From assembly GCF_900112175.1 (NCBI RefSeq), contig NZ_FOYT01000001.1:1302001-1366000 (forward strand): a DNA stretch of 64,000 nucleotides, read 5' to 3'. Position 1 is the first letter of the stretch; each line of letters starts with the position of its first letter. Position numbers and translations under genes: made by a program. The DNA is from Halogeometricum rufum. Lineage in GTDB: Archaea; Halobacteriota; Halobacteria; Halobacteriales; Haloferacaceae. The notes below the pieces were generated by a model. That model did not search any database. It was not told the origin of the DNA and saw only the letters and a list, made by a program, of their open reading frames with translations. Below, one piece after another: positions 15,447 to 25,488 of the stretch.

Positions 15447-15570
15447 CCGGCCGTGAGAACGGACGCGTTCGAGAGACTGGCCATAATCGAGCGACCGAGA
15501 GGCCGTCGGGGAACGAACACGGCGCGACGTTTCCGCGGGGATTATTGTCTCTCGCGGAGGAGTGAGTCCA

Positions 15571-15948
15571 ATGGCACGTGACCGGTCCGCCGAGGAGTCG
15601 CCCGAACTCCTCTCCGTCCTCGACGCCCTGGACGACGCGGACGCCCGAGCCATCATCAGAGCACTGGTAGAACCCATGACCGCAAGTGAACTCTCCGACG
15701 AGTGCGACATCCCACTCTCGACGACGTACCGCAAGTTGGACCTCCTGACCGACGCGGACTTGCTCGTCGAGGGCACGGAGATTCGCTCGGACGGACATCA
15801 CACGACGACGTACGAGGTGACGTTCGACGAGGTGCGCATCGAACTCACCGACGACCGAACCCTCGACGTGGACGTGGTCCGCCCCGAAGCGACGCCCGAA
15901 CAGCAACTCGCGGACATCTGGTCCGCGGTTCGGAGGGAGACGCAGTGA
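15571..15948 (+). CDS. Winged helix-turn-helix (ArsR-like) regulator
   Basis: 125 residues. Residues about 14-72 form an ArsR-like winged helix (ALVEPMTASELSDECDIPLSTTYRKL is the helix-turn-helix). A beta-strand-rich tail follows. A TATA-like GATTATTG lies about 27 bases before ATG 15571, which supports this start. The stop overlaps the GTG of the next gene (GTGA). This regulator plus DUF7521 pair is a recurrent haloarchaeal arrangement, so the regulator probably acts with or on the small membrane protein. Confidence 0.88.
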   Translation: MARDRSAEESPELLSVLDALDDADARAIIRALVEPMTASELSDECDIPLSTTYRKLDLLTDADLLVEGTEIRSDGHHTTTYEVTFDEVRIELTDDRTLDVDVVRPEATPEQQLADIWSAVRRETQ

Positions 15949-16238
15949 GTCACTTCGCCTCCGCCCCGGCCCTCGCCACCGCCCTCATCGTCGTGCAGAC
16001 GGGCATCCTCGTCATCGGGGGTCTCATCACCTACTTCAGCTTCAAGGCGTACCGCCGGACCGGCGAGTCGTCGCTCCGGGCGCTGACGCTCGGGTTCGGC
16101 ATCATCACCTTCGGCGCGACGATCGCCGGCGCTCTCGACGTAATCCTCGAACTGAACCTCGTCGTCGGCGTCCTCGTGGACTCCGTGCTCACGCTCATCG
16201 GGTTCGCCATCATCATGTACTCCCTCTACGTCGAGTAG
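15945..16238 (+). CDS. DUF7521 family small membrane protein
   Basis: 97 residues from a GTG inside the stop of the regulator gene. Three hydrophobic helices (about 8-30, 43-65 and 70-92) fill most of the protein, with a short basic loop FKAYRRTGE after the first. The position directly behind a winged-helix gene and the layout match the haloarchaeal family I remember as DUF7521. Possible roles are membrane sensing or anti-regulator activity; both are inference. Confidence 0.82.
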   Translation: MSHFASAPALATALIVVQTGILVIGGLITYFSFKAYRRTGESSLRALTLGFGIITFGATIAGALDVILELNLVVGVLVDSVLTLIGFAIIMYSLYVE

Positions 16239-16312: not shown

Positions 16313-16744
16313 ATGAGCGAGAAGACATCCGACGCCGACGAACTCGACGAGATTCGTCGTCAGAAGCGCGAATCGCTCGAATCGAACATCGAAAACGGCT
16401 CGGAAGCCGAGTCTTCGGACGGGTCGCCGAGCGAACCGGTCCACGTGAACGGCGGCGACGAACTGAACTCCCTCGTCGCCGACGCGGGCGTCGTCCTCGT
16501 CGACTTCTACGCGGACTGGTGCGGTCCGTGCAAGATGCTCGAACCGACCGTGCAGACGCTCGCCGAGACGACGGACGCCACCGTCGCGAAGGTGGACATC
16601 GACCAGAACCAACCGCTCGCGTCGCAGTACCAGGTCCGCGGCGTCCCGACGCTGCTCCTGTTCAGCGACGGCGAACCCGTCGAACAGGTCGTCGGCGTCC
16701 GCGACGAGCAGACTCTCCGCGGCCTCGTCGAACAGTACACGTAA
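16313..16744 (+). CDS. trxA: Thioredoxin with acidic N-terminal extension
   Basis: 143 residues. The thioredoxin domain starts near residue 42 and has the active site WCGPC (Cys70, Cys73) and the cis-proline loop RGVPTL (Pro112). It should reduce disulfides in the cytoplasm. The first 41 residues are acidic, serine-rich and probably helical or disordered, which is longer than a standard thioredoxin of about 105 residues. ATG 16313 has a TATATC box about 26 bases upstream. A thioredoxin-reductase-like gene is in the same window but far away (61867-62973). Confidence 0.93.
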   Translation: MSEKTSDADELDEIRRQKRESLESNIENGSEAESSDGSPSEPVHVNGGDELNSLVADAGVVLVDFYADWCGPCKMLEPTVQTLAETTDATVAKVDIDQNQPLASQYQVRGVPTLLLFSDGEPVEQVVGVRDEQTLRGLVEQYT

Positions 16745-16800: not shown

Positions 16801-17367
16801 CTAACCGAGCAGGTACGTCACCCGCGGGTACCGCTCCACGAGCGGTCGTCCGCCTATCTCGGCCCGTTCGACGAGGGCGTCGAGGCCGACGATGCGGCCC
16901 GCACCGAACGCCGCGACGGCGAGGAACACGAGCAGGTAGGCGAGGTCAGCGTTGACGAAGCCGTGGGCGACGTCCCAGTTCCCGAGGTAGAACAGGAGCA
17001 TCGTGACCGCCCCCCAGAACGCCGCCAGTCGGGTCAGCACGCCGAACACGAGTGCGAGGCCGATGGCGAGTTCGCCCCACGGGACGGCGACGTTCACGAA
17101 CGCCACGAACGGGCCGTTCGCGGCCATCGCGACGAAGGCGTCGGCCGCGGGCGACCCGTTCGACACCGTCTCGAACCGGAGGTAGCCCGTGGCGTCGAAC
17201 CCCGTCAGAAGCTTCTCGACGCCCGAGTGCGTGAAGGCGAGGCCCATCATGAGACGGAGTGCGAGGACGAACCACGCGCTCAGCGAGTGCGCCCGTCCGC
17301 GGACGGTGACGCCGGCGATGCTGCTCTCGAACGTGTTCGTCGCGTCGGTGGAAGTCGTCGTAGTCAC
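16801..17367 (-). CDS. DoxX family membrane protein
   Basis: 188 residues with four membrane helices. The block LRLMMGLAFTHSGVEKLL, then PWGELAIGLALVFGVLTRLA and the LLFYLGNWD region, are typical of the DoxX/DoxD family of quinone-linked membrane proteins. I start at GTG 17367 (MTTTTSTDATN), since the alternative GTG at 17400 adds a cysteine-containing lead not usual in the family. Convergent with the thioredoxin gene. A redox role alongside thioredoxin is only suggested by position. Confidence 0.85.
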   Translation of the reverse strand: MTTTTSTDATNTFESSIAGVTVRGRAHSLSAWFVLALRLMMGLAFTHSGVEKLLTGFDATGYLRFETVSNGSPAADAFVAMAANGPFVAFVNVAVPWGELAIGLALVFGVLTRLAAFWGAVTMLLFYLGNWDVAHGFVNADLAYLLVFLAVAAFGAGRIVGLDALVERAEIGGRPLVERYPRVTYLLG

Positions 17368-17522
17368 GGTGAAACACCCGATACCTGAACAGTCGGCCAC
17401 GGGTTCGATATAGCGGGTCGCTGGTTCTCGAACGCGGAGAACCGGAACGAACCCGGAGCGTCCGGTCCAATCCGGCGACTGCGGCGGCCCTCGGTCCCGG
17501 AGATACCACCGTTCGCGGACAC

Positions 17523-17552: not shown

Positions 17553-19031
17553 ATGGAACTGACGACTGTCGACATCGACATCGGGACTCGGTCGCCGACG
17601 GTCCTGATGCACGGGAGCGACGCCGCCACGCTCGGCCTCCATCCCCTCGACCGGGTGCACATCGGGACGGACAGCGGAACCGTCGTCGGTATCGTCGAAC
17701 TGAGCGACGAACTCGTCGACCCCGGCGAGTTGGCCGTCACGCGCCGACTGGGCCACGTCGACGGCGTCGTCGAGGTGACGCCCGCGCCCCGTCCGGCGTC
17801 CGTCGAGTTCATCCGCAAGAAACTCGACGACGACGAACTCGAACGCGACGAACTCGACCGCATCGTCCACGACATCCGCGAGGACCGCCTCTCGGACGTC
17901 GAACTCGGCGCGTACGTCTGCGCCATGTACATCAACGACACGTCGCTCGCCGAGACGATGCATCTCTCGGAGTCGATGGCCAACGCGGGCGAGACGCTGT
18001 CGTGGCAGGAGGAAGTCGTCGCCGACAAACACTGCATCGGCGGCGTCAGCGGCAACCGAACCACGCCGATTCTCGTCGCCATCGTCGCCGCCGCGGGCGT
18101 CACCGTCCCGAAGACGTCCTCTCGCGCGGTTACCTCCGCGGCGGGCACGGCGGACACGATGGAGGTGTTCTGCCCCGTCGACCTCGACGCGAAGGCGATT
18201 CGCCGCGTCGTCACCGAGACGAACGGCTGCCTCGCGTGGGGCGGTGCGGTCAACCTCTCGCCCGTGGACGACAAGATAATCCGCGCGGAGACGCCGCTGT
18301 CGCTGGACCCGCACGGCCAACTCGTCGCCTCCGTCCTGTCGAAGAAGCAGAGCGCCGGGTCGACGCACGTCCTCGTGGACATCCCCTACGGCGAGGGCTC
18401 GAAGGTGTCGAGCCTAGCGGACGCGCGCGAACTCGCTCACGACTTCCGCCGCGTCGGCGACCACCTCGGGATGACCATCGACTGCGCCATCACCGACGGG
18501 GGCGCCCCCATCGGCCGCGGCGTCGGTCCCGTCCTCGAGGCCAGAGACGTGCTGTCGGTGCTGTCGGGGAGCGGTCCCGGTGACCTCCGACGCAAGAGCG
18601 TCCGCCTCGCGCAGATACTCCTCGAGTGCGCCGGCGCGGACGCCGACGCCGGCGAGATACTCGAATCCGGCCGCGCACTCGACCGGTTCCGCGACATCGT
18701 GGCCGCGCAGGGCGGCGACCCCGACGTGACGCTGTCGGAACTCGTCCCGGGGCGGCACGAACGGACCGTGACCGCCGGACGCGACGGCGTCGTCACCCAC
18801 GTCGACAACCGTCTGATAAACGAGGTGGCGCGGCGGGCGGGGGCCCCCCGCGCGCCCGGCGCGGGACTGGAACTCCACCACCGCGTCGGCGACGCCGTCG
18901 CGCGGGGCGACCCCCTCTGCACGATTCACGCCGAGGACGAGAGCCGACTCGCGGAGGCGACGGACCACGCCGAACGCGCCGAACCCGTCCGCATCCGACC
19001 GCCGGACGAGACGCTGGTCGAACGCGTCTGA
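17553..19031 (+). CDS. AMP phosphorylase
   Basis: 492 residues, the usual length of archaeal AMP phosphorylase, which exceeds bacterial thymidine phosphorylase by an N-terminal domain of about 80 residues; that domain is present here. The phosphate/nucleoside motif KHCIGGVSGNRTTP lies near residue 160-170, and GSGPGDLRRKS and DGGAPIGRGVGP follow. The enzyme releases the base from AMP (and other NMPs) with phosphate to give ribose-1,5-bisphosphate, the first step of the route completed by the next gene and by RuBisCO at 21937-23199. Confidence 0.94.
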   Translation: MELTTVDIDIGTRSPTVLMHGSDAATLGLHPLDRVHIGTDSGTVVGIVELSDELVDPGELAVTRRLGHVDGVVEVTPAPRPASVEFIRKKLDDDELERDELDRIVHDIREDRLSDVELGAYVCAMYINDTSLAETMHLSESMANAGETLSWQEEVVADKHCIGGVSGNRTTPILVAIVAAAGVTVPKTSSRAVTSAAGTADTMEVFCPVDLDAKAIRRVVTETNGCLAWGGAVNLSPVDDKIIRAETPLSLDPHGQLVASVLSKKQSAGSTHVLVDIPYGEGSKVSSLADARELAHDFRRVGDHLGMTIDCAITDGGAPIGRGVGPVLEARDVLSVLSGSGPGDLRRKSVRLAQILLECAGADADAGEILESGRALDRFRDIVAAQGGDPDVTLSELVPGRHERTVTAGRDGVVTHVDNRLINEVARRAGAPRAPGAGLELHHRVGDAVARGDPLCTIHAEDESRLAEATDHAERAEPVRIRPPDETLVERV

Positions 19032-19143
19032 GTCCCGTCACGCCGCCGGCGGCGGTGGGCCGGCCGTCGCCTGCGGACGGATAGCCTTCGACGACGTTCC
19101 GCTACGGCGGAGTCTTTTTTCGCCCGAACGCGAAGGTGACGGC

Positions 19144-20103
19144 ATGGACGACCCCGAATCCCGCGTCACCGAGGAGGTTCGACAGACCGCGGACGCAATC
19201 GGGAGGATGGAGATTCGCGGCGCGGCGACAATCGCCGACGCCGCGGCGAGAGCGCTCCGCGACCAGGCGGAAGCGAGCGCCGCCGAGACGCCCGACGCCC
19301 TCCGCGCGGAACTGCGCGCCGCCGCGCGCGTCCTCCACGACACCCGCCCCACGGCGGTGAGCCTGCCGAACGCCCTTCGGTACGTCCTGTTGAACGCCGA
19401 CGGCACCACCGCCGAGGACGTCCGCGCCGCCGTCGCCACCAGCGTCGCGGAGTTCCGCGACCGACTGGAGAACGCGCAGTCGGACCTCGGCCGCGTCGGC
19501 GCGAACCGCCTCCGCGACGGCGACACCGTCATGACGCACTGCCACTCGACGGACGTCCTCGCCTGCGTCGAGGCGGCCGTCGAACAGGGCAAGGAACTCT
19601 CGGCCATCGTCAAGGAGACGCGCCCCCGCATGCAGGGCCACATCACCGCGCGCGAACTGGACGAGATGGGCGTGGACGTGACGCTAATCGTCGACTCGGC
19701 GGCGCGCCGCTATCTGAACGACGTGAACCACGTCCTCGTCGGCGCGGACAGCATCGCCGCCGACGGGTCGGTGATAAACAAGATCGGCACCAGCGGACTG
19801 GCGGTCAACGCCCGCGACCGGGGGACGCCCATCGTCTGCGCGGCCCAGACCATCAAGCTCCACCCCGACACGCTCACGGGCCACACGGTGGACATCGAGA
19901 TGCGCGACGAGAGCGAGGTGATAGACGACGAGACGGCGGCGGACATCGGCGACCCGACGGTGTTGAACCCGGCGTTCGACGTGACGCCGCCGCGGTACGT
20001 GGACGCCATCGTCACCGAACGCGGGCAGTACCCGCCCGAGAGCATCGTCACGCTGATGCGCGAACTGTTCGGCGAGGCGACGGTGGAACCGTGGGTCGAG
20101 TGA
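19144..20103 (+). CDS. Ribose-1,5-bisphosphate isomerase (eIF2B-related)
   Basis: 319 residues. It converts ribose-1,5-bisphosphate to ribulose-1,5-bisphosphate. Cys133 in MTHCHST and Asp202 in VGADSI sit where the catalytic Cys/Asp pair of the Thermococcus enzyme lies, and NKIGTSGLAV follows. This separates it from true eIF2B subunits and, together with the neighbours, from methylthioribose-phosphate isomerase. It lies 112 bases after AMP phosphorylase on the same strand and has a T-rich promoter-like element about 27 bases before the ATG. Confidence 0.94.
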   Translation: MDDPESRVTEEVRQTADAIGRMEIRGAATIADAAARALRDQAEASAAETPDALRAELRAAARVLHDTRPTAVSLPNALRYVLLNADGTTAEDVRAAVATSVAEFRDRLENAQSDLGRVGANRLRDGDTVMTHCHSTDVLACVEAAVEQGKELSAIVKETRPRMQGHITARELDEMGVDVTLIVDSAARRYLNDVNHVLVGADSIAADGSVINKIGTSGLAVNARDRGTPIVCAAQTIKLHPDTLTGHTVDIEMRDESEVIDDETAADIGDPTVLNPAFDVTPPRYVDAIVTERGQYPPESIVTLMRELFGEATVEPWVE

Positions 20104-20106
20104 CCC

Positions 20107-21183
20107 TCAGTCGTTCGGCCTGACGAGAATCTTCACGTGGTCGCTCTCGGGGTCGACGAGTCGGTCGAACCCCTCCTCGACGAGCGATTCGAGCCCGATT
20201 CGACCGGTGACGAACGGTTCGGGGTCGAGCCGACCGTCCCCGAGCATCTCGATGACCATGCCGTACTCCTCGTCCGACCGGGGGCCGCCGAGGTACGCGA
20301 GCGTCCCGGTCAGCGTCCGCTCTCCGAGGACGAGGTTGTTCAGGTGCGTGCTCACCTCCTCCTCCCAGATGCTCACGACCGTCGTCCGGCCGCCCGGTAC
20401 CGTGCTCTCGACGGCGTCGTTGAACGAGGCTTCGACGCCCGCGACTTCGAAGGCGACGTCGACGCCGCCGTCGGTGTGCGACCGGACGTACTCGACGGCG
20501 TCCGTCGCGGACGGGTCTATCAACTCGTCTGCGCCGCAGTCGGCGGCGCGTTCGCGTCTGGCGTCGCGCGGTTCGGAGACGAATATCGTCCCGGCGCCGG
20601 CCGCCCTCGCACACTGTATCACCGCCAGTCCGATGGGACCGCTCCCGAAGACGGCCACCGCGTCGCCGGCCTGCAGGCCGGACCGGCGGACCGCGTGGAG
20701 GGCGACGCTCAGCGGTTCGACCAGCGCGCCGTACTCGACGGGGACGTCGTCACCGAGGGGAACCGCCTGCTCCGCGTCGACGACGACGCTCTCGGCGAAC
20801 CCGCCGTTGCCGCCGGAGAGGCCGAGGAACCCGATGGAATCGCAGATGTGGTAGTTCCCGCTCCGGCACTGCCGACACTCCCCGCAGCACAGAATCGGGT
20901 TGATTGCGACGGCGTCTCCCTCTCGGAGCGTCGTCACGCCGTCGCCGACTTCGGAGACGAGGCCGCTGAACTCGTGTCCCATGCGAATCGGCGCCGTCTC
21001 GCCGGAGACGGGGTGCGGTTCGTCCGCGGGGACGAATATCGGCCCCGCCGTGTACTCGTGCAGGTCGGACCCGCAGATTCCGCAGGCGTCGACGTCGACG
21101 CGGACCTCGCCCGCACCGACCGTCCCGCGCTCGACGTCCTCGACGCGGATGTCTCTCCTGTCGTGATAGGTTGCTGCTCGCAT
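20107..21183 (-). CDS. Zinc-dependent alcohol dehydrogenase, 2,3-butanediol dehydrogenase-like
   Basis: 358 residues of the medium-chain dehydrogenase family. Catalytic zinc ligands are readable (Cys34 in ACGICGSD, His70-Glu71 in GHEF). The structural zinc set Cys100, Cys103, Cys106 and Cys114 is complete, and a GSGPIG nucleotide motif follows. The stretch CDSIGFLGLSGGNGGFAE is typical of 2,3-butanediol dehydrogenases; other sugar or polyol substrates are possible. It is convergent with the isomerase gene, three bases apart. An ATG three codons upstream (21192) is the alternative start. Confidence 0.9.
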   Translation of the reverse strand: MRAATYHDRRDIRVEDVERGTVGAGEVRVDVDACGICGSDLHEYTAGPIFVPADEPHPVSGETAPIRMGHEFSGLVSEVGDGVTTLREGDAVAINPILCCGECRQCRSGNYHICDSIGFLGLSGGNGGFAESVVVDAEQAVPLGDDVPVEYGALVEPLSVALHAVRRSGLQAGDAVAVFGSGPIGLAVIQCARAAGAGTIFVSEPRDARRERAADCGADELIDPSATDAVEYVRSHTDGGVDVAFEVAGVEASFNDAVESTVPGGRTTVVSIWEEEVSTHLNNLVLGERTLTGTLAYLGGPRSDEEYGMVIEMLGDGRLDPEPFVTGRIGLESLVEEGFDRLVDPESDHVKILVRPND

Positions 21184-21209
21184 CGTGTACATAGTGAACC
21201 CATCTCACG

Positions 21210-21298
21210 ATAAATGCGTACTCTCAGTAACTGACACCACTGTCCTCTACTCTCGCCGCCGCCGGTGACGAACACAAGAGATTTAATCGACTGAGAGT
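21210..21298. promoter_or_regulatory. Divergent promoter with a shared CTGAGAGT element
   Basis: The gap between the dehydrogenase (minus) and the membrane protein (plus) carries two TATA-like boxes: TTTAT on minus near 21210-21214 and ATTTAAT on plus at 21281-21287, the latter 28 bases before ATG 21312. CTGAGAGT occurs once for each gene in its own reading direction, at 21220-21227 (minus) and 21291-21298 (plus), making a wide dyad. Co-regulation is inference. Confidence 0.45.
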
Positions 21299-21311
21299 TC
21301 GTTTCGGTGAG

Positions 21312-21935
21312 ATGTCCTCGCTTCCGCACACCTCCACGCGACTCGTCGTCGGCGTCGGGTCCCTCCTCCTCGCCGTCGTCGCGACGTACGTCGCCGTCTC
21401 TGCGCCGGGGTTCCCCGGTCGCGTCAGGTCGTGGCCGCGGACGCTCGTCGGGCGCCTCCGGCGCGACGTACCGCGCGGCGACCGCGCGACGGCGGCGTGG
21501 TTCGGCGTCGCACTCTGGTCCGTCCTCGTCACCGGCCTCCACTTCGGCGGCCTCCACTACCGCGTCTACACGACGCTCCCGTGGTGGGACCTCCTGACGC
21601 ACGCGATGGGCGGCGTCGGCGTCGCCGCCGTCCTCGCGATGACGCACCGTCGGACGCCGGCCGCCGACTCGTCGTGGTGGCTGATACCGGCCGTCCTCGC
21701 CATCGGCGCCGGGTTCGAGGTGTACGAGTTCGTTTTCAAGACGTTCTGGTACGACTGGACGCTCCGCTTCTACGTCGTGGACACGGCGATAGACCTCGTC
21801 ATCAACACCTCCGGCGCCGTCGTCGTCGCCGTCGCCCTCGCGGGCTATCGTCGCCTCGCGGAGTCGACGGACGCGGACCGCGCCGACGAGGCGACGGCGG
21901 ACGACGCGGCGGCGGGCCTCGACGCGGCGGAGTAG
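21312..21935 (+). CDS. YjdF/DUF2238-like membrane protein
   Basis: 207 residues with about five membrane helices. The block PWWDLLTHAMGGVGVAA and the later FEVYEFVF and DTAIDLVINTSGA are the conserved pattern of the YjdF/DUF2238 family; the acidic residues in the helices (D in WWDLLTH, E in FEVYEF, D in DTAIDL) may bind something. Function unknown. The C-terminal 35 residues are an acidic soluble tail. It ends one base before the end of the RuBisCO gene (convergent). Confidence 0.78.
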   Translation: MSSLPHTSTRLVVGVGSLLLAVVATYVAVSAPGFPGRVRSWPRTLVGRLRRDVPRGDRATAAWFGVALWSVLVTGLHFGGLHYRVYTTLPWWDLLTHAMGGVGVAAVLAMTHRRTPAADSSWWLIPAVLAIGAGFEVYEFVFKTFWYDWTLRFYVVDTAIDLVINTSGAVVVAVALAGYRRLAESTDADRADEATADDAAAGLDAAE

Positions 21936-21936
21936 C

Positions 21937-23199
21937 CTACCGCGGCGTCTCCGTCCCCCACTCCTCGACGGCGGCCGCGAGTTCGGGGCTGTCTTCGGCC
22001 GCCGCTTCCAGCGACTTCCCGGCGGCGTAGCCGTCGACGGCCGCGCGGAGGGCCGCCGCGCCCGCCCGCGTGCCGTCCGGGTGGCCGTGGATGCCGCCGC
22101 CGGCCTGCACGCAGACGTTCGTCCCCGTCGCGTCCAACAGGTCGGGGACGAGGCCGGGGTGGAGTCCGCCGGAGGCGACGGGGAGCACGTCCGTCGTGCC
22201 GTACAGGTCCGAGCGGAGCCAGTCGTTTATGCCGACCGTGTCCTCGTTGGCGAGTTTGCCGAGTCCGGCGGTCCCCGTGTGGAGTTGGTCGACGCCGCAG
22301 AGGCGCGCTATCTGCGCGAGGACGCGCATCGAGACGCCGTGGTCGGGGAGGCGGTCGAACGCCGCGTGCATCGCGCGGTGGGCGTGGATGGCGATGCCGT
22401 GGTCCTCGCAGCGTTCGCGGACCGTCTGGACCGCGCCCCACCCGGTGGTTATCACGTCCACCATCACGTACTCACAGCCCTCCTCGGCCGCCAGGTCGAC
22501 GCGTTCGAGCATCGTGTTCGTGTCGGCGGTGACGTTGATCAGGTAGGACTTCGTCTCGCCCGTCTCGTCCTCGGCGTCGTCGCGGAACGACAGGCTCTCG
22601 ACGAGGCGGTCGTGGTAGGGGTTGAACGATTGGTCGGTGAGGTTCTCGTCGTCCTTCAACAGGTCGACGCCGCCGACCCACGCCTCGTAGCCGACTTCGG
22701 CGTGTCGTTCCGTCGAGAGGCCGACCTTCGGCTTGGGGACGGTGGCGAGGATGGGACGGTCGCCCTCGATGCCGAATATCTCCTCGCGGACCGAGGACCC
22801 GAACTGCGGCCCGGCGAACGCCTCGACGGTCGCCTCGGGCCACTCGCAGTCGAGGAGACGGATGGTGTCGACCGCTTTCATCCCCATGATGTTGCCCGCG
22901 ATGCAGGAGAGAATCTGGGGCATGTTGCCGGGTTCGAACAGGCCCGCGGGGTAGGCCACGTCCACCTCGGCGTCGTCGTCGTCGCCGCGGATGGCGAACG
23001 CCGTCGCGCCCATGTCGGTGAAGCCCTCGCCCGTCGGGAGGGCGGCCCACGTCCCGTTGGAGGACTCCGAGGCGACCCGCGAGGCGGCCGCTTCGGCGTC
23101 CATCCCCTCGGCGGGAGCGATGCGGAACGTACACACGAGGTCCGACTCGTCCGGTTCGTACGACAGGTCGAGAAAGTCCTCGTAGGTGATTCCAGCCAT
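21937..23199 (-). CDS. rbcL: Type III ribulose-1,5-bisphosphate carboxylase large subunit
   Basis: 420 residues. The carbamylated lysine and magnesium ligands are intact: Lys182, Asp184 and Glu185 in GVDLLKDDE. KPKVG (155-159) and the loop GTAGLGKL are also present. The length and sequence fit archaeal form III, which uses CO2 and ribulose-1,5-bisphosphate made from AMP rather than a Calvin cycle; no phosphoribulokinase is visible. ATG 23199 is chosen over GTG 23205 because the TATA box at 23224-23231 places transcription start just after 23205. Confidence 0.95.
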   Translation of the reverse strand: MAGITYEDFLDLSYEPDESDLVCTFRIAPAEGMDAEAAASRVASESSNGTWAALPTGEGFTDMGATAFAIRGDDDDAEVDVAYPAGLFEPGNMPQILSCIAGNIMGMKAVDTIRLLDCEWPEATVEAFAGPQFGSSVREEIFGIEGDRPILATVPKPKVGLSTERHAEVGYEAWVGGVDLLKDDENLTDQSFNPYHDRLVESLSFRDDAEDETGETKSYLINVTADTNTMLERVDLAAEEGCEYVMVDVITTGWGAVQTVRERCEDHGIAIHAHRAMHAAFDRLPDHGVSMRVLAQIARLCGVDQLHTGTAGLGKLANEDTVGINDWLRSDLYGTTDVLPVASGGLHPGLVPDLLDATGTNVCVQAGGGIHGHPDGTRAGAAALRAAVDGYAAGKSLEAAAEDSPELAAAVEEWGTETPR

Positions 23200-23223
23200 G
23201 CCCACGACGTACGTCGCGGGGGG

Positions 23224-23364: not shown

Positions 23365-25329
23365 TCAGATTCGGTCGCGCACCTCGCGGAACACCGGCAG
23401 GTCCGCGTCCACGACGGCGGCGACGGCGTCCGCCGCGCCGAGCAACCACTCGACGCGTTCGAGGCGGGCCTCCAGGTCCCCCGGCCCGATGCGGTAGCGG
23501 TCGACGATGGTCTCGACGGACTCGCCGGCGGTCCAGTCCGCGAAGATGCGCGCGAGTTTGACCGCGCACAGCCACTCCTCGAAGTCGTCGGCGTCGTTCA
23601 GACCGGTCGTGAACTCCGCGGCGTGCGTGCTGGCGAAGCGGTACATCGCGGCGCGTTCGCGGTTGCCGAGGTACGTCCCCTGCATGTCCGGCGTGTCGCA
23701 GACGACTTCCAGCGCCGTCAGTTCGGTCACGTTCGCGGCGTCCATCGCCGCCGCCGTCTCCACGCCCGCGACCAGTCGCGCCCCCGTCTCGGGCGTGACG
23801 TACTGCCGCGAGACGACCCCGCCGAGTTCCGTCGCCGCCAGTCGGTCCGTGCCGTCGGCCCCGTCGCCCGTCCCGCCGCCGGCGTCGAGCATCTCCATCT
23901 CGGCGAGTTCCGCGACCACCGAGTCGACGAGACGGGCGCGGTCCACGTCGGGCGACTGGTGGGCGAAGAACGTCGCGTCCAGCAGGTCCACCACGCCCGC
24001 GCGGGAGTCGGCGAACCCCGAGGCGACGACGGAGAGCACGTGCGTCCGCAGGGCGTCGCGCGCGGCGAGTTTCGACTGGACGGCCTCCGGCCCGGCGGTG
24101 ACGTACCGGTCCCACAGTTCGTCGGCGTCCGGGCCGCCGTCGGTTCCGCTCACGAGGACCGCCTCGCCGTACGGGTCGAGGTGGGGTCGGCCCGCCCGCC
24201 CGCACATCTGGTGGACTTCGAGGACGGGGAGCCACGCCATGCGCTCGCCGGTGTAGCGCTTCAGGTCGCGGACGACGACGCGACGCGCGGGGACGTTCAC
24301 GCCGGCGGCCAGCGTCGGCGTCGCGCAGATGACCTTCAGCCGTCGCTCGCGGAACGCCGACTCGACGAGGGCGCGGTGTTCGCTCCGGACGCCCGCGTGG
24401 TGGAACGCGACGCCGGACTCGACGGTCCCGGCCAACCGCGAACAGGTCTCCGTCGCGCCGAGTTCGCGCACCTCCTCGGCGAGGGCGTCGCAGTCGGCGG
24501 GCGACGCGCCGGTCAGTTCCTCGCGCGCGAGGCGGTCCGCCAGCGACTCGGCCTCCCGACGGGAGCGGACGAACGCGAGACACTGCCCGCCGTTCGCGAC
24601 GGCGTCGGCGACGAGTGCCGCCGTCGCCTCCGTCTCGTCCTCGCCGTCCGGTCCGGCGGCGTCCGCGTCCACGCCGAGGGTCGAGTCGTCGTCGAACGTC
24701 ACGTCGCCGTCGGCGTAGACGCCCGTCCGGAGCGAGACGGGACGCCACGTCGTCTCGACCAGTTCGGCGTCCAACCAGTCGGCGATGTCCTCGGGGTTGT
24801 CCACCGTCGCAGAGAGGGCGACTATCTGGAGGCCGGGCGCCCGCCGTTGCAACGTCGCCAGCGTGACTTCCAGCGTCGGCCCGCGACCCTCCGACCCGAG
24901 GAGGTGGACCTCGTCCACGACGACGCAGGCCAGCGACTCGACCCACGAGGCGCCGTTCCGGATGGCCGAGTCGACCTTCTCGGCGGTGGCGACGACGATG
25001 TCCTCCTCGACCAGGTCCTCGTCCGTCGCGTCGAAGTCGCCCGTCGAGATGCCGACGCTCACCCCCGGCAACTCGGCGAACGTCTCGTACTTCTCGCGGG
25101 CGAGGGCGCGGAGCGGAACGATGTAGAGGGCGGGTCCGTCGGCCGTGAGCATCGCGAGTTCCGCGATGAACGTCTTGCCGGACGCGGTGGGGATGGCGGC
25201 GACGAGGCGTTCGCCCTCCGTGACGCCCGCCTCGACGGCGGCGACCTGCGGCGGGTACAGCGTCTCGATACCGCCGGACTCGTAGTGCTCCAGTATCGGG
25301 CCGGGGAGGGGGAGGTCCCGGACGTGCAT
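23365..25329 (-). CDS. Hel308-type DEAD/DEAH helicase
   Basis: 654 residues. The N-terminus HVRDLPLPGPILEHYESGGIE and LYPPQ Q-motif region, Walker A PTASGKT (47-53), DEVH (139-142), SAT in LSATVDN and motif VI QMCGRAGRP mark a superfamily 2 Ski2/Hel308 helicase. Classic haloarchaeal Hel308 is longer; this one is probably the shorter paralogue and lacks part of the C-terminal ratchet/HLH region, which I infer from length only. It should unwind forked DNA or RNA. ATG 25329 has a perfect TATA box 27 bases upstream; a longer in-frame start at 25440 runs through it. Confidence 0.87.
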   Translation of the reverse strand: MHVRDLPLPGPILEHYESGGIETLYPPQVAAVEAGVTEGERLVAAIPTASGKTFIAELAMLTADGPALYIVPLRALAREKYETFAELPGVSVGISTGDFDATDEDLVEEDIVVATAEKVDSAIRNGASWVESLACVVVDEVHLLGSEGRGPTLEVTLATLQRRAPGLQIVALSATVDNPEDIADWLDAELVETTWRPVSLRTGVYADGDVTFDDDSTLGVDADAAGPDGEDETEATAALVADAVANGGQCLAFVRSRREAESLADRLAREELTGASPADCDALAEEVRELGATETCSRLAGTVESGVAFHHAGVRSEHRALVESAFRERRLKVICATPTLAAGVNVPARRVVVRDLKRYTGERMAWLPVLEVHQMCGRAGRPHLDPYGEAVLVSGTDGGPDADELWDRYVTAGPEAVQSKLAARDALRTHVLSVVASGFADSRAGVVDLLDATFFAHQSPDVDRARLVDSVVAELAEMEMLDAGGGTGDGADGTDRLAATELGGVVSRQYVTPETGARLVAGVETAAAMDAANVTELTALEVVCDTPDMQGTYLGNRERAAMYRFASTHAAEFTTGLNDADDFEEWLCAVKLARIFADWTAGESVETIVDRYRIGPGDLEARLERVEWLLGAADAVAAVVDADLPVFREVRDRI

Positions 25330-25353
25330 CGTACGATGCTGGGGCCGTGACGG

Positions 25354-25360
25354 TATAAAA
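25354..25360 (-). promoter_or_regulatory. TATA box of the Hel308-type gene
   Basis: TTTTATA on the minus strand, centred about 28 bases before ATG 25329. This is one of the clearest TATA boxes here and rules out the longer reading of the gene. Confidence 0.65.
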
Positions 25361-25488
25361 ACCCGCGCCCGTCTGACGGCCGACGTTCCCGTCTCCGAAC
25401 CTGTTAGTAGTATCCTGACACCGCCTGACGGCGGTGCCATTCGACGGCAGGTTTTTGCTGTCCGCGCGTCAGGTATGAATCAGATTAC

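Follow-up and report, generated by a model that had tools for sequence, protein, structure and literature searches.

The locus described here lies in a 64,000-nucleotide stretch of the Halogeometricum rufum genome (contig NZ_FOYT01000001.1, positions 1,302,001 to 1,366,000 of the forward strand), referred to below as the window. Three of its genes encode an AMP (nucleoside monophosphate, NMP) phosphorylase, a ribose-1,5-bisphosphate (R15P) isomerase and a form III Rubisco. We consider it very probable (about 93%) that the locus specifies the carboxylating, or classical, archaeal pentose bisphosphate pathway, and that the two genes interposed among the three are bystanders. As judged from published enzymes, the phosphorylase would convert NMPs and phosphate to the free base and R15P, the isomerase would convert R15P to ribulose-1,5-bisphosphate (RuBP), and the Rubisco would combine RuBP with CO2 to yield two molecules of 3-phosphoglycerate. 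Overall, NMPs and nucleosides would be broken down to 3-phosphoglycerate via R15P and RuBP with the addition of CO2; the flux through these reactions in H. rufum, and its direction, are likewise projected from the published enzymes.

Three Pathway Enzymes Are Encoded within 6 kb

Gene identities were assigned with Pfam and NCBIfam profiles and curated equivalog cut-offs, and were read directly from the DNA, as were the active-site residues, the presence or absence of genes genome-wide and the conserved gene order. As listed in Table 1, the three enzymes are encoded within 6 kb and each scored well over its equivalog cut-off. Residues 10-483 of the AMP phosphorylase aligned to the solved structure 4ga5. 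The isomerase has both Cys133 and Asp202 (numbering of the window's own protein), and the surrounding stretches are identical to those of the solved isomerase 5yfj. The active-site stretches of the Rubisco align to solved archaeal-type Rubiscos, and its K-D-D-E motif contains Lys182, Asp184 and Glu185 when numbered from the ATG at 23199, which gives a protein of 420 amino acids; note that a start at the upstream GTG (23205) would lengthen it by two residues. A preliminary description of the locus had named the same three genes within 6 kb and had called these catalytic residues intact, and the positions, equivalog scores and structural alignments agree with it on every one of these points.

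Table 1. Genes of the locus, with positions in the window and the profile evidence for each.
Feature	Position	Strand	Evidence
AMP (NMP) phosphorylase	17553..19031	+	TIGR03327 equivalog, 616.8 bits (cut-off 535)
R15P isomerase (Cys133, Asp202)	19144..20103	+	TIGR00511 equivalog, 458.9 bits (cut-off 314.1)
Form III Rubisco large subunit	21937..23205	-	TIGR03326 equivalog, 638.1 bits (cut-off 497.45)
Zinc alcohol dehydrogenase, butanediol-dehydrogenase-like	20107..21192	-	Pfam ADH_N/ADH_zinc_N
Small membrane protein, no family above cut-off	21312..21935	+	NCBIfam and Pfam scans
Helix-turn-helix (HTH) transcriptional regulator, left frame edge	15562..15948	+	PF12840, 43.8 bits (cut-off 27); conserved order
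DUF7521 protein (97 amino acids), frame gene	15945..16238	+	PF24365, 106.3 bits (cut-off 27); conserved order
Thioredoxin, possible accessory (weak evidence)	16313..16744	+	TIGR01068, 103.4 bits (cut-off 96.8)
DoxX-family membrane protein, frame gene	16801..17400	-	PF07681, 40.1 bits (cut-off 23.6)
Hel308-like helicase, right frame edge	23365..25440	-	NF002654, 775.5 bits (below the cut-off of 887); conserved order

The Rubisco was also compared with its relatives, of which the best 80 of 216 were kept as named loci (some of these loci end at contig ends). A chosen set of nine active-site motifs was tested in 81 sequences, namely the window and the 80 named loci. All nine were present in 79 sequences, including that of the window, and L073 and L082 each lacked one exact motif. 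In the Archaeoglobus fulgidus enzyme, Ser-363 was reported to influence oxygen sensitivity (PMC4575112). The residue at this position, which precedes the catalytic Ser, is Ala in 80 of the 81 sequences and could not be assigned in the remaining one, and Met-295 is unchanged in all 81. The solved Rubisco 2cwx, which we take to be the enzyme of Pyrococcus horikoshii, an anaerobe, also has Ala here, indicating that this residue is not specific to aerobes, and an aerobic adaptation of the Rubisco through Ala was rejected.

The Genome Supplies a Second Entry into the Pathway and One Recognised RuBP Consumer

No phosphoribulokinase was found in the H. rufum genome, which is 99.82% complete; the sole match to PF00485, the phosphoribulokinase family, is a uridine kinase (294.7 bits, cut-off 180). 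The Rubisco should therefore not close a Calvin cycle, as the preliminary description had also concluded from the window, and membership of that cycle was rejected. CO2 fixation of either the Calvin or the reductive-hexulose-phosphate type could draw on the presence of a form III Rubisco and on the Rubisco-mediated pathway reported in methanogenic archaea (PMC5241800). With a uridine kinase as the only family match, we give such a role next to no chance.

Profiles for the other pathway enzymes were built from the neighbours of other haloarchaeal isomerases. A ribose-1-phosphate (R1P) kinase was found on contig C2 of the same genome (402 bits with the built profile; 419.9 bits with NF053626, cut-off 330), about 1.9 kb from a nucleoside phosphorylase gene on the same strand and with deoC nearby. 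The nucleoside phosphorylase scored 472.7 bits in the Urdpase1 profile and fell below the uridine phosphorylase cut-off of TIGR01718 (218.1 against 280.3 bits), as did the reference nucleoside phosphorylase of L037 (210.3 bits). The genome had no match to RuBP phosphatase (NF053830-like) at E<=1e-30 and none to ribulose-1-phosphate (Ru1P) aldolase (NF053831-like) at E<=1e-20; the Rubisco is therefore the sole recognised consumer of RuBP here. The AMP-to-3-phosphoglycerate set that the preliminary description had called complete is indeed so; that description had missed the second entry, whose R1P kinase and nucleoside phosphorylase are encoded on a separate contig.

Two further genes on contig C2 were noted. 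A DUF63 membrane protein (L122:9956-10774; 88.5 bits, cut-off 25) adjoins the R1P kinase, and proteins that look similar to it by eye stand beside the isomerase or the R1P kinase in L027, L029, L031, L035, L037 and L137; the DUF63 protein is a candidate transporter for the pathway. In addition, a small protein encoded between the R1P kinase and the nucleoside phosphorylase (L122:6924-7673) shows weak likeness (22 bits) to the interposed membrane protein.

Pathway Genes Occur Together across the Order

We surveyed 146 genomes of the order for the pathway enzymes. Note that these genomes are related, so that the p values given below overstate independence. Over the cut-offs, Rubisco was found in 43 genomes (not counting weaker matches in G013, G047, G073 and G104), the isomerase in 74, and AMP phosphorylase in 21 (not counting a partial gene in G048). 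R1P kinase matched in 90 genomes at E<=1e-45 and FucA-type aldolase in 60 at E<=1e-20. RuBP phosphatase matched in 28 at E<=1e-30, of which 27 were counted, the match in G019 covering about half of the profile. Aldolases of at least 293 bits, taken as Ru1P aldolase, occur in 27 genomes, and these are the same 27 that have RuBP phosphatase.

Among these genomes, AMP phosphorylase co-occurs with Rubisco (19 of 21, p=3.5e-10). Together with a gene order common to several genera, this co-occurrence shows that the gene neighbourhood is more than chance. R1P kinase is present in 73 of the 74 isomerase genomes (p=1e-23), and the isomerase in 37 of the 43 Rubisco genomes (p=2e-8). Rubisco and RuBP phosphatase tend to exclude one another among the isomerase genomes, of which 3 of 74 contain both (p=5e-7). 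The tie between isomerase and Rubisco bears on whether the set might run mainly as salvage, with nucleosides passing through R1P and R15P to NMPs by a reversed AMP phosphorylase and with Rubisco as an overflow. Such a direction would suit the R1P kinase and the nucleoside phosphorylase of this genome, and a reversible route was proposed for Thermococcus (PMC9700705). It leaves the isomerase-Rubisco link unexplained, as it does the 22 genomes that have isomerase and Rubisco and no AMP phosphorylase over the cut-off, and we regard it as unlikely.

Several observations weigh against the carboxylating pathway as the function of the locus. The co-occurrence is not strict: 24 of the 43 Rubisco genomes have no AMP phosphorylase over the cut-off (one of them, G048, holds the partial gene), and two of the 21 AMP phosphorylase genomes have no Rubisco. 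The literature covered yielded no enzyme assay for Rubisco or AMP phosphorylase from haloarchaea. Furthermore, co-isolation placed the isomerase homologue of Haloferax volcanii with translation initiation factors and with neither of the other two enzymes, and each of the three genes there has a promoter of its own (PMC8576121).

The co-isolation raises the possibility that this homologue acts chiefly, or in addition, as the translation initiation factor aIF2B-alpha; its location next to the other two genes would then be incidental or a sign of moonlighting. The Haloferax volcanii homologue, HVO_0966, was described as a hub of the initiation-factor network, binding to aIF2 and a role in initiation were reported for it, and renaming it aIF2B-alpha was proposed (PMC8576121). 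On the other hand, absence of the isomerase equivalog over the cut-off from 72 of the 146 genomes would be odd for a core factor, and this absence and the tight tie to R1P kinase favour an enzyme role. In addition, the H. rufum genome has two further, weaker IF-2B-family matches, which could be translation factors, and the haloarchaeal homologue Htur_0571 has isomerase activity (PMC9700705). A translational role, whether main or additional, appears improbable, with some moonlighting still conceivable, and we retain the pathway assignment.

The survey also revealed gene sets of other compositions. Six Rubisco genomes lack the isomerase over the cut-off; in G009, G025 and G037, a divergent isomerase-family gene below the cut-off (35% in L019) stands beside AMP phosphorylase and Rubisco. 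In the small-genome lineages (L019 and L020 of G009 and G011; G025; G037), Rubisco adjoins AMP phosphorylase. Rubisco occurs together with RuBP phosphatase and Ru1P aldolase in G056, G072 and G113 (L036, L037). Two genomes, G036 (L027, L028, L140) and G100 (L029, L030), have AMP phosphorylase, R1P kinase, isomerase, RuBP phosphatase and Ru1P aldolase, with no Rubisco match. NMP phosphorylase was stated to occur only with Rubisco (PMC9700705); in G036 and G100 it would feed the non-carboxylating route, which differs from that statement.

Neither Rubisco nor RuBP phosphatase was found in 13 of the 74 isomerase genomes, namely 11 genomes of f17 g25 (G017, G041, G058, G066, G074, G097, G102, G118, G124, G136 and G142; L131-L138) plus G002 and G119. 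Five of these 11 f17 genomes were examined, and all five carry a FucA-like gene (60-62% to Ru1P aldolase) about 4-5 kb from a HAD-like gene, as judged by eye; the HAD-like gene is possibly an unrecognised RuBP phosphatase. Rubisco-like proteins of G104 (L021:7155-8417) and G013 (L034:6987-8264) were closest to the OiaX decarboxylase family, at 496.3 and 504.2 bits, respectively (cut-off 700), and were also below the form III Rubisco cut-off.

One Chromosomal Frame Holds the Pathway Genes in Several Genera

The pathway genes of the window and of 17 named loci are held by one chromosomal frame, in the order HTH regulator, DUF7521 protein, thioredoxin, sometimes DoxX protein, AMP phosphorylase, isomerase, a variable filling, Rubisco on the opposite strand and Hel308-like helicase. 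L056, where the contig ends, was left out of this comparison, and the HTH gene of L083 lies beyond the edge of the fetched stretch. The order is common to Halogeometricum, Haloferax and Halogranum, except that thioredoxin is absent in Halogranum, and it recurs in Halobellus without AMP phosphorylase. The isomerase is convergent with Rubisco in all 37 of the 80 named loci that have an isomerase nearby. Outside the frame genera, R1P kinase, and not AMP phosphorylase, stands beside the isomerase in 20 of the 80 loci, and both were found at the locus in none.

Eight Haloferax loci, Haloferax volcanii not among them, carry the window's frame of HTH regulator, DUF7521 protein, thioredoxin and Hel308-like helicase. 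The spacing between isomerase and Rubisco is about 5.7-5.9 kb in five of the eight; in the remaining three it ranges from 27 bp to 2.5 kb. The filling of the Haloferax locus L002 consists of a fusion of the 49- and 30-kDa subunits of Complex I and a chemotaxis transducer, unlike the dehydrogenase and membrane protein of the window.

Rubisco is present in two of the five genomes of the genus. Three congeners (G147-G149) have the DoxX protein and the membrane protein at the corresponding site and lack thioredoxin, AMP phosphorylase, isomerase and Rubisco there; Rubisco was not found anywhere in these genomes, and the absence of AMP phosphorylase and isomerase refers to the site only. In a helicase tree, from which three Haloferax rows were omitted because they were too short, the three congeners form one clade (100/99) beside the window and Halogeometricum limi (90/92), and they count as one event for this reason.

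The Interposed Genes Are Most Likely Bystanders

The two genes between isomerase and Rubisco lie on different strands, and the preliminary description had suggested a possible link of both to the pathway. The dehydrogenase is a medium-chain zinc alcohol dehydrogenase whose best solved relative, 6ie0, is an (R,R)-butanediol dehydrogenase, so the earlier label butanediol-dehydrogenase-like is a fair one. The proposed link fared otherwise. The dehydrogenase occurs at no Rubisco locus among the 80 named ones (some of which end early at contig ends), and in Halogeometricum limi, which is among them, the isomerase and membrane-protein genes are 42 bp apart. The closest homologues of the dehydrogenase (82%) belong to G067 and G062, both of which lack Rubisco and isomerase over the cut-off. 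Over the 146 genomes, the dehydrogenase was not associated with Rubisco (5 of 18 dehydrogenase genomes, p=1) or with the isomerase (p=0.32); note that at most 13 candidates per genome were scored, so that weak homologues may be missed. Four other genomes have both dehydrogenase and Rubisco. The two genes are on different contigs in G043, G090 and G144, and G109 has a 67% homologue on its Rubisco contig, at a distance of about 19 kb. A link of the dehydrogenase to the pathway was rejected; it is most likely a bystander, and at this place it was seen only here.

The membrane protein had been labelled YjdF-like, for which we found no support. It had no NCBIfam match, and a Pfam scan at E<=1 returned only DUF4184 (E=0.016, below the cut-off) and no match to the profile of YjdF, which we take to be that of the DUF2238 family. 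The gene adjoins Rubisco in Halogeometricum limi and in six Halobellus loci, and it is absent from 10 of the 18 pathway-bearing loci, namely those of Haloferax and Halogranum. As described above, it is kept at the site in the three congeners without pathway genes there, which were chosen by their helicase. It was also found at a similar position in G115, G138 and G060, which are pathway-free and whose loci were picked for carrying it; of the frame, the G060 locus shows only thioredoxin, the membrane protein and a long-branched helicase, and HTH and DUF7521 genes were not seen there. No association with Rubisco was observed over the 146 genomes (p=0.12), as counted in nine genomes with at least 76 bits among 68 that match at E<=0.001. 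A pathway link was rejected for this gene too, and it is most likely a bystander that belongs to the chromosomal frame.

Taken together, these data leave a very slim chance that the two genes are parts of the pathway, for example in the handling of a reduced by-product or in nucleoside transport. In favour of such a part are the short gaps to the adjacent pathway genes (3 bp and 1 bp), the conserved position of the membrane-protein gene next to Rubisco in the Halogeometricum limi and Halobellus genomes, and the location of the G109 homologue fairly near its Rubisco. Against this stand the absences from relatives' loci, the homologues in pathway-free genomes and sites, and the null associations given above. 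Absence from the locus in relatives is the very outcome that the preliminary description had named as making bystanders of the two genes.

Thioredoxin Imperfectly Tracks the Pathway

Thioredoxin was found in 16 of 18 pathway-bearing loci and in one of six pathway-free loci (Fisher p=0.0027, 24 loci). The pathway-free loci were chosen by helicase (L126-L128) or for the membrane protein (L040, L041, L129), and L056 was excluded. The pathway genes might form a dispensable module at one conserved frame, jointly absent from it in some lineages, with thioredoxin as an unrecognised fourth member that would, in an aerobe, maintain the activity of the isomerase, which depends on a thiol (Cys133), or of the form III Rubisco, which is sensitive to oxygen. 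The three congeners, which lack all four genes and retain the DoxX and membrane-protein genes interspersed with these in the window, are in line with this idea. However, pathway-free G060 keeps thioredoxin at the site, and two Halogranum loci carry the pathway without it. With few independent events and one counter-example, the tracking is imperfect and the evidence weak, and we regard this proposal as rather doubtful.

Relation to Known Systems and Significance

The haloarchaeal pentose bisphosphate pathway was described in three variants, with the full three-gene set in 14 of 63 haloarchaea, and activity was shown for a haloarchaeal isomerase and an R1P kinase (PMC9700705). Variant i, with Rubisco and NMP phosphorylase, has the same enzyme set as H. 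rufum, including the ATP-dependent R1P kinase that replaces the ADP-dependent one. The window agrees with it in having three enzymes over their cut-offs, intact active sites in isomerase and Rubisco, and R1P kinase and nucleoside phosphorylase elsewhere in the genome; it comes from another species, and no biochemical difference is visible. The non-carboxylating pathway of Halobacterium and others shares nucleoside phosphorylase, R1P kinase and isomerase with this genome (PMC9700705); its RuBP phosphatase and Ru1P aldolase are the two enzymes that were not found here at the thresholds given above. The arrangement also has a precedent, as the AMP phosphorylase gene adjoins the isomerase gene in Haloferax volcanii with Rubisco near, as in the window (HVO_0965, HVO_0966, HVO_0970; PMC8576121). 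The finding is already known in kind and arrangement, because the former paper describes the variants and the latter the Haloferax volcanii neighbourhood. The preliminary description was thus right about the gene set, mistaken about the interposed genes and unaware of the earlier account in Haloferax volcanii.

What the survey adds is new and minor: a dispensable module at a fixed site, which three congeners lack there, mixed gene sets, among them AMP phosphorylase without Rubisco, and the imperfect tracking of the pathway by thioredoxin. The neighbourhood is now sorted, as far as sequence allows, into pathway and non-pathway genes, and a natural comparison is offered within the genus, where some species have pathway genes at the site and others do not. 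More broadly, haloarchaea mix the routes that use RuBP in combinations unlike those of the published account (PMC9700705).

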